The position numbers and the translations under genes were made by a program. Positions 17,462 through 44,448 of a DNA stretch of 64,000 bases are shown piece by piece. The notes under the pieces were generated by a model. The model was not told the DNA's origin. It searched no databases and saw only the letters and a program-made list of their open reading frames with translations. Origin of the DNA: Belliella pelovolcani. Lineage in GTDB: Bacteria; Bacteroidota; Bacteroidia; Cytophagales; Cyclobacteriaceae. Position 1 is the stretch's first letter, and each line of letters begins with the position of its first letter. The stretch is taken from assembly GCF_900156785.1 (NCBI RefSeq), contig NZ_FTOP01000008.1, forward strand, positions 1 to 64,000. The letters are read 5' to 3'.

Positions 17462-17542
17462 ATGTAATTCTTCGATTATAATCGAAAATAAACATGTAAT
17501 TTTTCGATTACGATCGAAAATAAACATGTAATTCTTCGGTTA
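17462..17542. repeat. Three tandem 32-bp repeats carrying palindromes, promoter of the AAA_14 ATPase
   Basis: Copies begin at 17462, 17494 and 17526 with an exact period of 32 bp; the third is partial (17 bp). Each starts ATGTAATT(C/T)TTCGATTA. Copy 1 contains the perfect 16-bp palindrome TTCGATTATAATCGAA (17471-17486), and copy 2 has arms TTTTCGAT / ATCGAAAA. An inverted TAATTACATG lies at 17447-17454 in the start region of the gene. The arrangement looks like an operator array. Confidence 0.75.
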
Positions 17543-39422: not shown

Positions 39423-39441
39423 TATTTTAATAAATAAACAA

Positions 39442-39475
39442 AAGTCCGTAGAGCATAGCTTTACGGACTTTTTTT
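39442..39475 (+). terminator. Rho-independent terminator of the M3 peptidase gene
   Basis: Stem AAGTCCGTA / TACGGACTT with about 12-nt loop, followed by seven T. Confidence 0.92.
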
Positions 39476-39514
39476 ATGCTCAACTAATTCATGATCAAAT
39501 AATACGAGCTACCA

Positions 39515-39529
39515 CACTTCATTTACAAT
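39515..39529 (+). promoter_or_regulatory. 15-bp element shared with the LytTR regulator promoter
   Basis: CACTTCATTTACAAT occurs here, 69 bases before the stand-alone receiver gene, and again at 43662-43676, 62 bases before the LytTR gene, in the same orientation. Candidate binding site of the LytTR regulator. Confidence 0.5.
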
Positions 39530-39597
39530 CCACTACATTCTGAGGGAGAAGATTGAATTATATATTTCTTTTGTGTCACTAATTTAAAATTAATAGC

Positions 39598-39993
39598 ATG
39601 AGAGTCCTTATTGTTGAAGATGATGAAATCATCAGGTTCATATTGTCACATCACTTCAATTCAGCGGGATTTGAGGTTACACTTGCAGAAGATGGTCAGC
39701 GTGGACTTGACTCCCTGATTGAAAACAATTTTGATACGGATCTGATCATTACAGATTTGATGATGCCTAGGTTAGATGGCTATGGATTGGCTAGAAAAGT
39801 AAGGATTGGACATGGGAAGTTTGAATTACCTATCATTGCCATCACTGCGGGCATCATTTCAAACGAAGAGAAAAACCGTACACTTTTTAACTATACGCTC
39901 CAAAAACCATTGGACATCAAAGGCCTTGTATCCCTATCAAAGTGCCTGATTGCAGAAAGCGAAAAGTTGCAAGATCACCCAGTTGCAATGTAA
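39598..39993 (+). CDS. Single-domain response regulator
   Basis: A 131-residue receiver domain with no output domain. Acidic pocket VEDDE at the N-terminus, phospho-acceptor Asp in DLIITDLMMPRLDGYG, the Thr of AITAG and Lys of LQKPLD complete the active site. It probably passes phosphoryl groups or binds a partner protein, as in phosphorelays. It faces the hybrid kinase gene convergently (12 bases apart) and shares a promoter element with the LytTR regulator nearby. Confidence 0.9.
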   Translation: MRVLIVEDDEIIRFILSHHFNSAGFEVTLAEDGQRGLDSLIENNFDTDLIITDLMMPRLDGYGLARKVRIGHGKFELPIIAITAGIISNEEKNRTLFNYTLQKPLDIKGLVSLSKCLIAESEKLQDHPVAM

Positions 39994-40004
39994 TGCTACT
40001 GACC

Positions 40005-41048
40005 CTACTCCGTGAGTAGGGTCAGTTCTGCACAAAATACCATTTGTTGATCTACTGTGATACTTAGATTAGCTTGATTCTTTTTGGCATATTCAAAAGC
40101 TAAATACAAGCCAAGACCCAAACCTTGCTGCTCAAAATACCTTCTATTGATTTGAGAAAAAGCCTTTATCTCTACTTTTTGAGGGACTTCAAACAAGTTT
40201 TGCTGATTGCATACTTTGATCATTTGTTTTTTAAGCTCTATGACTACATAATCTCCTGAGTTGAATTTGAATGAATTGGTGATTAATTCTTCTGTAATAA
40301 ATTCAAATTGCTTATAATCAAACCAACACCCGAAATCCAATCCAGTTATCCTATACCTGCCTTTTGATGTTGAACTGTCAAGTATCCTTATCAAAAATTC
40401 CTTTACAGAAGGCAACCAAATTCGCTCAGTCCTTACGTTTTCAATGGTCTGAAACCGTGCTAGATTTAAAAGACTGATATTTAATCTATCGCCCGCTGCA
40501 ATGGCTTTATTCAAAAGTTCCATCAAATGCTCTTCACTCAACACACCCAATGAATCCTTGATAATCTGAAGCAGAGAGTTCAAACCAAATAAGGGCGTAC
40601 GCAATTCATGGTACTTGACTTTCCTCTCTTCTGCCAGCACTTCCTCTACCTTGTGTTGTAGCCACATATCTCTGTTCCACTTCTTATTCAATGAAGTGTT
40701 GACTGCGTTTATCAAATCCTTTGCCTGAATAGGCTTTGTGAGGTAATCTTCCGCTCCTGTCTCCATACCTTTCCGCACATCATCTTTTTCGACTTTCGCA
40801 GTAAGAAAGAGAAAGGGCAAATTGATGTATTGATCATTTTTTCGAACTGCATTTAAAAACTCAAAGCCATCCATCACAGGCATCATTACATCTGAGATCA
40901 CAATGTCTGGATTGTGATTTTCGAGAAGTTGCAAACCTACCTTTCCATTATCCGCTTCTACTACTTCAAAGTCATGAATTTCAAGGATATCTTTGATATT
41001 CTCTCTTAACTCTAGCTCATCTTCGACAAGCAATATTTTAATTTTCAT
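40005..41048 (-). CDS. Response regulator-histidine kinase hybrid (REC-HisKA-HATPase)
   Basis: A 347-residue protein with an N-terminal receiver (LLVEDELELRENI, Asp in PDIVISDVMMPVMDGFE, TAK and LTKPI) followed by a compact kinase module. The H-box is KYHELRTPLFGLNSLL and a reduced HATPase region has FITEELITNSFKFNSGDYV (N-box) and QGLGLGLYLAFEYAKK (G2-like). No sensor domain is present, so input is by phosphotransfer to the receiver. It overlaps the large kinase gene by 11 bases and is co-transcribed with it. Confidence 0.88.
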   Translation of the reverse strand: MKIKILLVEDELELRENIKDILEIHDFEVVEADNGKVGLQLLENHNPDIVISDVMMPVMDGFEFLNAVRKNDQYINLPFLFLTAKVEKDDVRKGMETGAEDYLTKPIQAKDLINAVNTSLNKKWNRDMWLQHKVEEVLAEERKVKYHELRTPLFGLNSLLQIIKDSLGVLSEEHLMELLNKAIAAGDRLNISLLNLARFQTIENVRTERIWLPSVKEFLIRILDSSTSKGRYRITGLDFGCWFDYKQFEFITEELITNSFKFNSGDYVVIELKKQMIKVCNQQNLFEVPQKVEIKAFSQINRRYFEQQGLGLGLYLAFEYAKKNQANLSITVDQQMVFCAELTLLTE

Positions 41049-43611
41049 AGGGTAAACTCAATGTAAATATGGATCCTTTTTCTTCTTGACTGACGAAGCT
41101 AACTTCTCCACCTAATTTGTTGATAAATTCTTTGACTATATTCAGTCCTAAACCAGTCCCTTTGATATTAGAGACATTCTTTGCTCTAAAAAATGACCCA
41201 AAGATATATTTATGATCTGCTTTTGGAATACCAATTCCAAAATCTTGAACCTTGATCAACACGTTTCCATTCAGTTTAGAAACACTTACTTTTGGATAAT
41301 CAGAAGCATTGATCGAATATTTCACAGCATTATCGATCAGGTTATTGAGGATGTGAGAAAGCCAAGTAGGATCTGTATTGATGATAATCTCCTCTTCTGA
41401 CAATTCAAGTTCAATCTTACTGCCCATATCTTGAAGATGATTATCCACGACAGATTTGACAAATTGATTGATTCCTACTTCTTGGTGCGTAATGACCACC
41501 TTATCTTGTGCGTTACGCTCCAAGATCAATAAATCAGAAATGACTGATGTCAATCTCTTAATTTGTGCATTAATCCTTCCTATATGTGTTTTGGACTTTT
41601 CCTTGAGCATACCATCGTCCACCCTTTCCAAAATCATCCCAAGTAATTCTGTACTACTCATGATGGTAGCCAAAGGCGTGCGAAATTCATGGGAGGTCAT
41701 CGATATAAATCTAGACTTGAGTTGATTCAACTCTTTTTCACGCATCAAGGATTCCTTGAGCTCTTCTAGCATTTTTTCACGTTCTGTTACATCCCTTGAA
41801 GTCGCCAAAAGAGAATGTACAACACCATGCTCGTCTCTCAATGGCTTCATCAAAATCTCCAAATAAACTGTAGATTTATTGTACTTATGCTGATGAGGGA
41901 CTACCAACTTAATCTGATCATCCAAATCACTCGCAACAAGATCTCCTGGAACACCAAAAGCTTGCTCAGGCGTCCTTCCAATAAGTTCCTCAGGACTATA
42001 ACCAAGGACTTTCTCGATGGAAGGAGAAATGTATTTGAAAGTCAAATCAACATCATGCAGGGCAATAATATCACCTGTATTCTGAGATACTAGTTTATAA
42101 TTTTCATCTGCTTTTTGTCTTAAAAGATCTGACTCTTTCTTCAACCGATTAATTCTAATTGCTTTGATCAAATTTGCATAACCTGAAATCAAAGGCTGCA
42201 GAAACTCTACATCCTCCATGGTGTAGTCTGTATCCTTATTGGCAAAGCCCATCAAGCCAAGAAACTCTTCACCTTTGTACACGGGAATTCCCAAATATCT
42301 GTACAACGGAGGGTGACCATTAGGCGTCCCTCCTGCCCTTGGATCCTTAGAAACAGCATTAGAAATCACTAATTCTCCTGACTTCAAACTCTCACCAAAT
42401 AGGGTGTCGAGATTTCTGAATTCTATTCCTACTCGGAAATTTTGCTCATAAAATTTATTTGTCTCTTTTGACCAAGCAATGTTAGATATTGTATGGCTTT
42501 TCAAGTACGGAGCTCCATCTGGATCATATAGAACCTCGCCAATAAAACCAAATTTACTTCCAGTAATATTGAGTATTTTGATCAAAAGTGTATCCAAGGG
42601 ACTCTGAAAATCTTCTTCTAGGTAAAAGCTGAGTTGAGTATCATTGACTGCCTGAAGCAATTCATTTAACCTCTGAAGATCAACCTCTTTCTCTTGAAGT
42701 GCTGCTTGGATGGATTTTTCTTGGTTAATGTTGACCAAAGTTCCAGACAAGGATGTTGGAGTACCAATCTGGTCAAGAATGATGCGAGCTTGTGCCTTGA
42801 TCCAAACCAATGCACCAGATTTAGTAACTAACTGAAATTCGGTCTTTGCTTCTTCCAATGCGCCATTAACCAACTCCTGAAACAAGACATACATCTGTTC
42901 ATGAAAAGATGGCTCTAAGTAACTAAACGCATTTTTACCAATACTTTCTTCTATGGTGTATCCTGAAATAGACTCCCAAGCTTGATTCAAAAATGTCCAA
43001 TTACCTTCAATATCAACCTTGAAAATCACATCCTTGACCCCGTGAACCAAGTTGAGATAGCTTTTCCTACTTTTAACCAAGTTCTTTTTTTGCTTCTTGG
43101 ACAGGATGGTAGTACCCAAAGTTGAGGCCAATGCATGAAGTGCCAACTCCTGCTGGGTTGTAAATAATTTTTCTTCCTTACAATTATCAAAACCTATATA
43201 ACCCCAAAAATCACCGCCAGAAAAAATCGGAACAAAGAGATAGGATAAAATACCTTGTTCGACCATGGCATCATAGAAATCTCCATTTTGAGTGTTTTTA
43301 ACCAATTCATTGATAACCTTATTTTGTCGAAGCACTGATTCTATTTCCGGGAAAATAGACCAAGGGAGCTCCTGGAGGTATTCAAAATCAATCTGCGGAC
43401 TTACGCCAGGAGCATTCCACTCGAAGCTATAAGTCATACAAAACTCATCCGCCTCGTTAAAATGATTCTTGAATACATATACTCGATCCACGCCTGTAGC
43501 CTCACCTAGATGCTGCAAAATGAGAGGAATCGATTTTTTTAAACTAGGGTAACTTTGTAATGTAAAGTATGATTTACCGATCGCCTCTAAGATAATTGAA
43601 CTTCTTTCCAT
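41038..43611 (-). CDS. GAF-PAS-GAF-PAS sensor histidine kinase
   Basis: An 857-residue cytoplasmic kinase with no membrane segment. In order: GAF (about 15-170, LFVPIFSGGDFWGYIGFDNC), PAS with PAC (about 185-300, VDIEGNWTFLNQAWESISGYT), a second GAF (about 325-480, GIPVYKGEEFLGLMGFAN), a second PAS (about 500-610, DVDLTFKYISPSIEKVLGYSPEEL), HisKA with H in SMTSHEFRTPLATIMSS, and HATPase (LIDNAVKYS, DFGIGIPKAD, KGTGLGLNIVKEF). Divergent from the LytTR regulator, which may be its partner. Confidence 0.93.
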   Translation of the reverse strand: MERSSIILEAIGKSYFTLQSYPSLKKSIPLILQHLGEATGVDRVYVFKNHFNEADEFCMTYSFEWNAPGVSPQIDFEYLQELPWSIFPEIESVLRQNKVINELVKNTQNGDFYDAMVEQGILSYLFVPIFSGGDFWGYIGFDNCKEEKLFTTQQELALHALASTLGTTILSKKQKKNLVKSRKSYLNLVHGVKDVIFKVDIEGNWTFLNQAWESISGYTIEESIGKNAFSYLEPSFHEQMYVLFQELVNGALEEAKTEFQLVTKSGALVWIKAQARIILDQIGTPTSLSGTLVNINQEKSIQAALQEKEVDLQRLNELLQAVNDTQLSFYLEEDFQSPLDTLLIKILNITGSKFGFIGEVLYDPDGAPYLKSHTISNIAWSKETNKFYEQNFRVGIEFRNLDTLFGESLKSGELVISNAVSKDPRAGGTPNGHPPLYRYLGIPVYKGEEFLGLMGFANKDTDYTMEDVEFLQPLISGYANLIKAIRINRLKKESDLLRQKADENYKLVSQNTGDIIALHDVDLTFKYISPSIEKVLGYSPEELIGRTPEQAFGVPGDLVASDLDDQIKLVVPHQHKYNKSTVYLEILMKPLRDEHGVVHSLLATSRDVTEREKMLEELKESLMREKELNQLKSRFISMTSHEFRTPLATIMSSTELLGMILERVDDGMLKEKSKTHIGRINAQIKRLTSVISDLLILERNAQDKVVITHQEVGINQFVKSVVDNHLQDMGSKIELELSEEEIIINTDPTWLSHILNNLIDNAVKYSINASDYPKVSVSKLNGNVLIKVQDFGIGIPKADHKYIFGSFFRAKNVSNIKGTGLGLNIVKEFINKLGGEVSFVSQEEKGSIFTLSLPYEN

Positions 43612-43626
43612 GCCTTATTTTTCAAT

Positions 43627-43676
43627 TTGTAAAGTAAGTGCATAAAAAATTGTCAAGTCTTCACTTCATTTACAAT
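43627..43676. promoter_or_regulatory. Inverted repeat in the kinase/LytTR divergent promoter
   Basis: TTGTAAAGTAAGTG (43627-43640) and CACTTCATTTACAA (43662-43675) are inverted copies with 12 of 14 bases matching, spaced 21 bases. The right arm is the 15-mer that recurs at 39515-39529. LytTR proteins bind paired short sites, so autoregulation is plausible. Confidence 0.55.
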
Positions 43677-43737: not shown

Positions 43738-44448
43738 ATGCATAAAATACTCATAGTAGAAGACGAATACGAACTAGCTTTGAACATCCAAGAAATCTTG
43801 ATCAATCTAGACTATGATGTTGTCGGCATCTTTAATAACGCCATAGATGTCTTGGACTTTTTTATTGACGGCACAGCTGATCTTATTCTTATGGATATTT
43901 TGATTCAAGGTGACCTTGATGGTATTGACCTCTGTTACAAACTTAAAGATAAACTCAACATTCCAATTGTATTTCTGACGGCATACTCTGATCAAGGAAT
44001 CTTAGATCGCATCTCAAAAGTCGTATATGATGGTTATTTGCTGAAACCTTTCACTGTTGAGAGCCTCAAGTCTTCTATCTATCTCGCTTTAGAAAAACCA
44101 CATCGAAGCGCAAACTCAAAGCCCCTCCCCCCTACTAAAAACACACTCAAAATCAGAGACAAAGGATTCCTTGTGCCAGTTCCTATCTATGACATCCTAT
44201 TTCTCAAAGCAGACGGGTTGTATACCAAAGTGTACACAAAAACCAAAACCTACGTCATCAGAGATATTTTAAAAGATGTCCTTGGGGATTTACCATCTAG
44301 CTCATTCGTAAGAGTTCACAAATCTTATTTGGTCAATATCAAGCATATTAATTCTTTTAACTCAAAAGAACTGATCATAGAAGATCACACCATTCCAATT
44401 AGAAGAGGATTTTACAAGGAGCTCCATCAATTGACTGAAATCAAATAA
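43738..44448 (+). CDS. LytTR-family response regulator
   Basis: A 236-residue regulator with an N-terminal receiver (IVEDEYELALNI, Asp in DLILMDILIQGDLDGIDL, TAYSD, LLKPF) and a C-terminal LytTR DNA-binding domain (DILFLKADGLYTKVYTKTKTY, SFVRVHKSYLVNIKHI, IPIRRGFYKEL). Divergent from the large kinase across 126 bases. It ends two bases from the convergent thioredoxin gene of the sulfur module with no terminator between. Confidence 0.94.
   Translation: MHKILIVEDEYELALNIQEILINLDYDVVGIFNNAIDVLDFFIDGTADLILMDILIQGDLDGIDLCYKLKDKLNIPIVFLTAYSDQGILDRISKVVYDGYLLKPFTVESLKSSIYLALEKPHRSANSKPLPPTKNTLKIRDKGFLVPVPIYDILFLKADGLYTKVYTKTKTYVIRDILKDVLGDLPSSSFVRVHKSYLVNIKHINSFNSKELIIEDHTIPIRRGFYKELHQLTEIK

Follow-up and report, generated by a model that had tools for sequence, protein, structure and literature searches.

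A 15-base sequence shared by two response-regulator genes

The question raised by this locus of Belliella pelovolcani is why the same 15-base sequence, CACTTCATTTACAAT, stands upstream of two response-regulator genes, one encoding a stand-alone receiver domain (REC) and the other a regulator of the LytTR type. The DNA analysed, hereafter the window, is the whole stretch of 64,000 nucleotides at positions 1 to 64,000 of contig NZ_FTOP01000008.1 (assembly GCF_900156785.1). Based on sequence comparisons, CACTTCATTTACAAT is a putative operator at which the LytTR response regulator, the product of the plus-strand gene at 43738-44448, would act, and we consider it reasonably likely that this protein binds the shared sites, autoregulates, controls the divergent kinase operon and co-regulates the receiver gene.

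One copy, at 39515-39529 on the plus strand, is a single half-site upstream of the receiver gene (39598-39993, plus strand), its core TTTACAA starting at -76 from the start codon. The other, at 43662-43676 on the plus strand, precedes the LytTR regulator gene and forms one arm of an inverted repeat (dyad), the second arm of which, CACTTACTTTACAAA read on the minus strand, lies at 43626-43640 on the kinase side. The arms are identical at 12 of 15 positions and separated by 21 bases, and the dyad occupies the divergent promoter region between the LytTR and kinase genes. Taken as the difference in coordinates between the last base of each copy and the start codon behind it, the distance is 69 for the receiver gene and 62 for the LytTR gene, and the orientation is the same. 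The positions, distances and orientation of the copies, and the inverted repeat at 43.6 kb, had been described in an initial annotation made from the sequence and were all reproduced here. A scan of all 44 contigs of the genome (4,105,790 bases) revealed no scatter of the 15-mer through coding DNA, a check which that annotation had suggested; exact CACTTCATTTACAAT was found at these two places only, both upstream of response-regulator genes, and the reversed control pattern at 0 places.

A repeated 15-mer is by itself unremarkable in 64 kb and at chance level: the window holds 12 repeated 15-mers in five places, and 20 sequences simulated with a first-order Markov model had 5.4 on average (range 1-10). 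The case therefore rests on placement and on conservation in relatives. Matches to the 15-mer with at most three mismatches numbered 10 in the window against 4.86 expected, a count reached by 5 of 100 shuffles. The full dyad pattern with up to three mismatches was found at one place in the source genome (G000), where it had no mismatch; across the eight genomes of the genus, the other mismatch-free places were only the orthologous ones of B. aquatica (G001) and B. buryatensis (G007).

Conservation upstream of LytTR genes

A family search in 390 genomes yielded 90 matches to the LytTR protein with E values up to 1e-42, spread over 63 genomes (relatives are referred to by handles, L for loci, G for genomes and g for genera). 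Upstream regions were examined for the best 51 of the 90 matches (E up to 3.6e-52), from 48 loci with the window included. The LytTR protein of the window is 92% identical to that of B. buryatensis (L051) and 81% identical to that of B. aquatica (L052). The pattern GTAAA-N35-TTTAC was present exactly upstream of five of the 51 genes (window, L051, L052, L204 and L214) and, with at most one mismatch, upstream of 11, adding L185, L224, L201, L208, L209 and L211. Within these 11, which are spread over five genera (g1, g22, g74, g85 and g99), GTAAA was positioned between -106 and -114, and the TTTAC arm between -66 and -74; a one-mismatch dyad of L200, at -55, fell outside the counted range. When the 51 upstream regions were shuffled 500 times base by base, the exact pattern occurred with a mean of 0.014 (maximum 1) and the pattern with at most one mismatch with a mean of 0.396 (maximum 3).

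TTTAC alone was found between -110 and -55, a position cut picked after the sequences had been viewed, in 30/51 upstream regions of this clade and in 36/224 control upstream regions, a set that is not clean in that as many as 45 of the 90 bases of a region may fall within an adjacent frame (p 2e-9; this and the other p-values given here are too small, the compared sequences being related and not independent). Among 28 more distant LytTR genes (three of which had no ATG near the expected start, so that the expected place was taken instead), six carried TTTAC (p 0.0013 against 30/51) and one carried TTTACA, compared with 17/51 for TTTACA in the clade; no dyad with up to one mismatch was found upstream of the 28 when GTAAA was sought from -110 to -76.

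By eye, the TTTAC site upstream of the LytTR genes of genus g103 (L190, L192-L195, L197-L199) differs, reading RTTTAC and lying mostly near -88, with TGCA or GCA about 10 bases further in several; the sequence TTTACAATTCGACGCATATC upstream of the B. buryatensis receiver gene resembles this type of site. Promoter boxes were looked for by eye and none was assigned.

Conservation upstream of receiver genes

TTTACAA was present between -110 and -55 in 9 of 15 receiver upstream regions, against 3 of the 224 controls (Fisher p 1.7e-10). Leaving out the receiver gene of the window gave 8/14 (p 2e-9), and in AT-rich controls the count was 2/112 (p 1.4e-8 against 9/15). In a set of 13 module receiver genes, hand-picked in that L209 was added after looking and L202, L212 and L218 were excluded for differing layout (the as-found count being 9/15), TTTAC stood within 180 bases upstream in all 13, at -60 to -94 in 11 and at -68 to -76 in nine of those. 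For the other two g85 loci, L208 and L211, the name pattern used returned no receiver gene. The distance of the core from the receiver gene is about that of the LytTR-side arm from its own gene, and the presence of the half-site core before both the LytTR and the receiver genes is what a LytTR protein in control of its own gene and of the receiver gene would lead one to expect.

A matrix trained on the LytTR-side arms, the arm of the window included, provided a weaker test of the receiver genes than the core did, because the CAYTT half is not kept there. The score of the window receiver was reached by 1/224 controls and those of 11 other receivers by 6 to 32, while the scores of L222, L212 and L202 were reached by 55 to 180 of the 224. 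From these comparisons, the two sites of the window appear to be instances of one element with a kept core of about 7-9 bases, their full identity over 15 bases probably being partly luck.

Several of the top-scoring controls adjoin such modules and may be targets. Counted as controls were CACTTCATTTACATT at -94 of a 786-aa gene (L223, 11211-13568), whose product we take to be CheB-like, and CATTTAATTTACCTA at -87 of L210 7775-8191, a second lone-receiver-like gene near related modules. At the g68 loci L189, L191, L203, L206, L207 and L213, a 574-595-aa gene near the LytTR gene bears sites of the CTTTTTATTTACGAT or GCTTTAATTTACCTT type at -82 to -110; the LytTR genes of g68 are without the dyad despite these sites.

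Several observations weigh against an operator of the LytTR protein shared by the two genes. The dyad is absent at its position from 40/51 LytTR upstream regions, including all 16 of g103 and all seven of g68, and 8 of the 11 dyads come from two genera, four each from g1 and g85. On the receiver side, six of the 15 genes as found lack TTTACAA and four lack TTTAC between -110 and -55, L202 and L212 show none of the core in 190 bases, and the 15-mer is not kept in its exact form, CAGGATATTTACAAT standing in its place in B. buryatensis and CCTTTAATTTACAAA in B. aquatica; the matrix score of the B. buryatensis receiver was matched by 20/224 controls. Genome-wide, the loose half-site CAYTTNNTTTAC is not enriched (43 places against 49 for the reversed control), and across the eight genus genomes the dyad pattern with up to three mismatches occurred at 19 places against 22 for the reversed control, so that weaker matches carry no weight. 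To these points are added the relatedness of the compared sequences, mentioned above, and the 21-base spacing of the arms, wider than the 11-13 bases that are reported to separate LytTR repeats (PMC4847170).

A shorter form of the site, CAYTTNATTTAC, occurs at 16 places in the source genome, nine intergenic and seven inside reading frames, and some of these recur ahead of the same gene in other species. Since only 3/16 extend to TTTACAAT and CAYTTNNTTTAC is unenriched genome-wide, a large regulon is not claimed.

Alternative explanations

The initial annotation proposed that the LytTR protein also controls the receiver gene. This gained support from the core, which recurs before both gene types at corresponding distances, in paralogous modules as well as orthologous ones; the LytTR protein is the putative binder. 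A different account would make the element a promoter element or the conserved operator of some other transcription factor; we regard this as unlikely, although it deserves serious weight. Like words are also kept between Belliella species ahead of unrelated genes: three species (L135 in G000, L246, L267) have CATTTAATTTACACTCTGCATATC at -57 of a gene that is truncated by the end of the locus and encodes at least 485 aa, and similar intergenic sites precede genes of 162 aa, at least 487 aa and 262 aa in two species each (loci L160/L251, L154/L263 and L287/L279). It is possible that this LytTR protein, or a different one, also acts on the genes behind such sites. The rarity of TTTACAA in control upstream regions (3/224) argues against a general promoter element. 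Another factor is made less probable by the intact dyad, which in G000 is found only at the LytTR/kinase junction, and by the core, which occurs more often upstream of the LytTR genes of this clade than upstream of more distant ones. From the distribution of the sites we infer that the LytTR protein itself may bind them.

That the two copies are a chance repeat is very unlikely. The mean of 5.4 repeated 15-mers expected in 64 kb of such composition would allow it, as would the loss of the exact 15-mer at the receiver genes of relatives, but the core is found at matching positions before both gene kinds in several genera. That the inverted repeat works at the RNA level, as a stem-loop in the kinase or LytTR leader, is highly improbable: the plus strand could form a 12-pair stem (-7.3 kcal/mol, z -1.93, with 9/200 shuffles as good), but the strand of the kinase transcript gave z -0.10, the single receiver site lies in no predicted stem (receiver leader z +0.96), and it is the letters GTAAA and TTTAC themselves that recur across genera. 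A recent duplication that placed one promoter ahead of the other gene, which could account for 15 identical bases before two receiver-domain genes, is scarcely credible given that the flanks beyond these bases are unlike by eye and that other species have the half-site before both gene types with different letters around the core.

Genes of the cluster and the proposed circuit

The LytTR regulator (236 aa) joins a REC domain (Pfam Response_reg E 4.6e-17) to a LytTR domain (Pfam LytTR E 2.8e-19) and is thus a LytTR-type response regulator; its gene has a kinase gene and a thioredoxin-like gene as immediate neighbours. The stand-alone receiver (131 aa; Pfam Response_reg E 2.9e-16) has the usual set of acceptor residues, D9, D53, T83 and K103, in an alignment of 12. 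Between the two regulator genes the initial annotation had placed two kinases, a description that had to be revised. One is an intact histidine kinase of 857 aa (41038-43611, minus strand) with the Pfam layout GAF-PAS-GAF-PAS-HisKA-HATPase, in which HisKA and HATPase_c were matched and D-x-G-x-G is legible in the sequence. The other (40005-41048, minus strand), with REC, HisKA and a C-terminal ATPase-like part according to Pfam, alignment, AlphaFold and Foldseek, is best called a hybrid response regulator of doubtful kinase activity.

The layout of this protein, an N-terminal REC followed by DHp and ATPase parts without a DNA-binding domain, is that of a hybrid response regulator of the LvrB/PakF-like kind, weakly so in Pfam, where HisKA fell below the curated cut-off (23 vs 26.9 bits) and HATPase_c was unlisted at E 0.001. 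The AlphaFold model had a mean pLDDT of 82.5 and a pTM of 0.55, and its best Foldseek matches were Leptospira LvrB (8vc9; E 1e-18, TM about 0.3) and HK853-type kinases; compared with solved structures by sequence, the best matches shown were mainly over the receiver part. By eye, 13/13 aligned sequences have N-x-Q at what is presumably the position of the D-x-G ATP-site motif of kinases, a replacement that makes autokinase activity doubtful, and the presumed phospho-acceptor H147 is present in 12/13 and G-x-G-x-G in 13/13. Because the 3' end of the kinase frame overlaps the start of the hybrid regulator frame, the two genes probably form one operon. Phospho-acceptor residues are visible in all four proteins of the cluster.

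Between an M3 peptidase gene and the receiver half-site, a terminator-like hairpin followed by a T run was seen by eye at 39440-39476, and the corresponding hairpin of B. buryatensis looks longer. Elsewhere in the window, at 17471-17533, a 21-base direct repeat, ATCGAAAATAAACATGTAATT, with starts 32 bases apart, lies beside a palindrome around TCGATTATAATCGA.

In the circuit proposed here, the two inverted half-sites between the divergent genes would allow the LytTR protein to control itself and the kinase operon, and the one half-site upstream of the stand-alone receiver would bring its gene under the same circuit. The GAF/PAS kinase would phosphorylate the stand-alone receiver and the receiver domain of the hybrid regulator as well as the LytTR regulator, these phosphotransfer routes being predicted ones. 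The receiver could act as a competing acceptor or shuttle, and its LytTR-driven expression would then provide feedback; it may serve as a phosphate sink, as a shuttle to the hybrid regulator or as an allosteric partner. Activation looks likelier than repression, since the sites lie about 70 bases before the start codons, which would fit placement just upstream of the promoter. That the block is a closed phosphorelay, as the initial annotation had it, we can only infer.

Comparison with known systems

LytS/LytTR two-component pairs feature a LytS-type membrane kinase. The Belliella kinase partner differs from these, matching GAF, PAS, HisKA and HATPase_c and not the LytS type. Almost all LytTR operators are reported to consist of a pair of repeats, direct or inverse, each 9-11 nt long and 11-13 nt from the other (PMC4847170). 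YpdB of E. coli and its operators, described in the same source, are alike in combining a REC + LytTR protein with two half-sites upstream of the controlled gene (PMC4847170). The Belliella arms are of 12-15 nt, inverted and 21 nt apart, about one helical turn more than these reported repeats (PMC4847170), and so do not have the operator form described there; with the longer gap, the two proteins could still sit on the same side of the helix. This mismatch in spacing concerns the operator and not the family membership of the LytTR protein.

Autoregulation by LytTR proteins as such is already known. In LytTR Regulatory Systems (LRS), the LytTR protein is reported to act on repeats before its own gene in positive autoregulation, and Bacteroides operons of an LRS-related kind have 11-bp direct repeats 11 bp apart (PMC6193735). 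The LRS described there combine a membrane inhibitor protein with direct repeats (PMC6193735), whereas the Belliella locus has a REC-LytTR protein, kinase genes and an inverted repeat. The nearest described kinase/hybrid-regulator arrangement found is LvrA/LvrB, in which a kinase gene likewise adjoins that of a REC-HisKA-ATPase protein without a DNA-binding domain; such a pair was proposed to feed into a branched pathway to DNA-binding regulators (PMC5863495). Compared with this description, the Belliella cluster adds a LytTR regulator and a lone receiver, and its hybrid regulator is without D-x-G. Whole-length fold agreement with the LvrB structure 8vc9 is poor (TM about 0.3), the likeness being domain by domain. 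A literature search for LytTR binding sites with direct repeats in Bacteroidetes returned no paper, and a search for this kinase-hybrid regulator-REC-LytTR module returned none among the matches listed.

Locus history and implications

At L204 (g74), the locus consists of an M3 peptidase gene, the kinase, the LytTR gene, a thioredoxin-like gene and a 458-aa gene, with the exact dyad present and the receiver and hybrid regulator absent, and L201 and L209 (g85) have a receiver gene preceded by TTTACAA, while a hybrid regulator was not found at either. These layouts suggest that the kinase-LytTR pair and its putative operator came first and that the receiver and hybrid regulator joined later; loss of the receiver or hybrid regulator in g74 and g85 would also explain them. 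L036, L185 and L224 hold paralogous modules of four genes, in which the receiver gene is faced by a second LytTR gene, and G007 probably has such a module as well, split over the contigs of L037 and L041. We offer, as a tentative suggestion for which the odds are not favourable, that an older kinase-LytTR pair with an inverted, one-turn-longer operator gained an accessory branch, made up of a lone receiver and an ATP-site-altered hybrid regulator and connected through a half-site of that operator, so that the output regulator would dose its own phosphate sink or shuttle in a self-tuning phosphorelay. L204, L201 and L209 look like intermediate states of such a recruitment.

Even if true, the preferred reading of CACTTCATTTACAAT as an operator of the LytTR protein would leave the general understanding of signalling unchanged, the circuit being of a familiar kind and the example new. 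It would supply a LytTR clade of the Bacteroidota with an operator that can be tested, the inverted arms of which are spaced one helical turn wider than is reported for most of the family, and would show a lone receiver gene recruited to a two-component circuit through one half-site. The conserved dyad would then be a handle for finding the other targets of the circuit.

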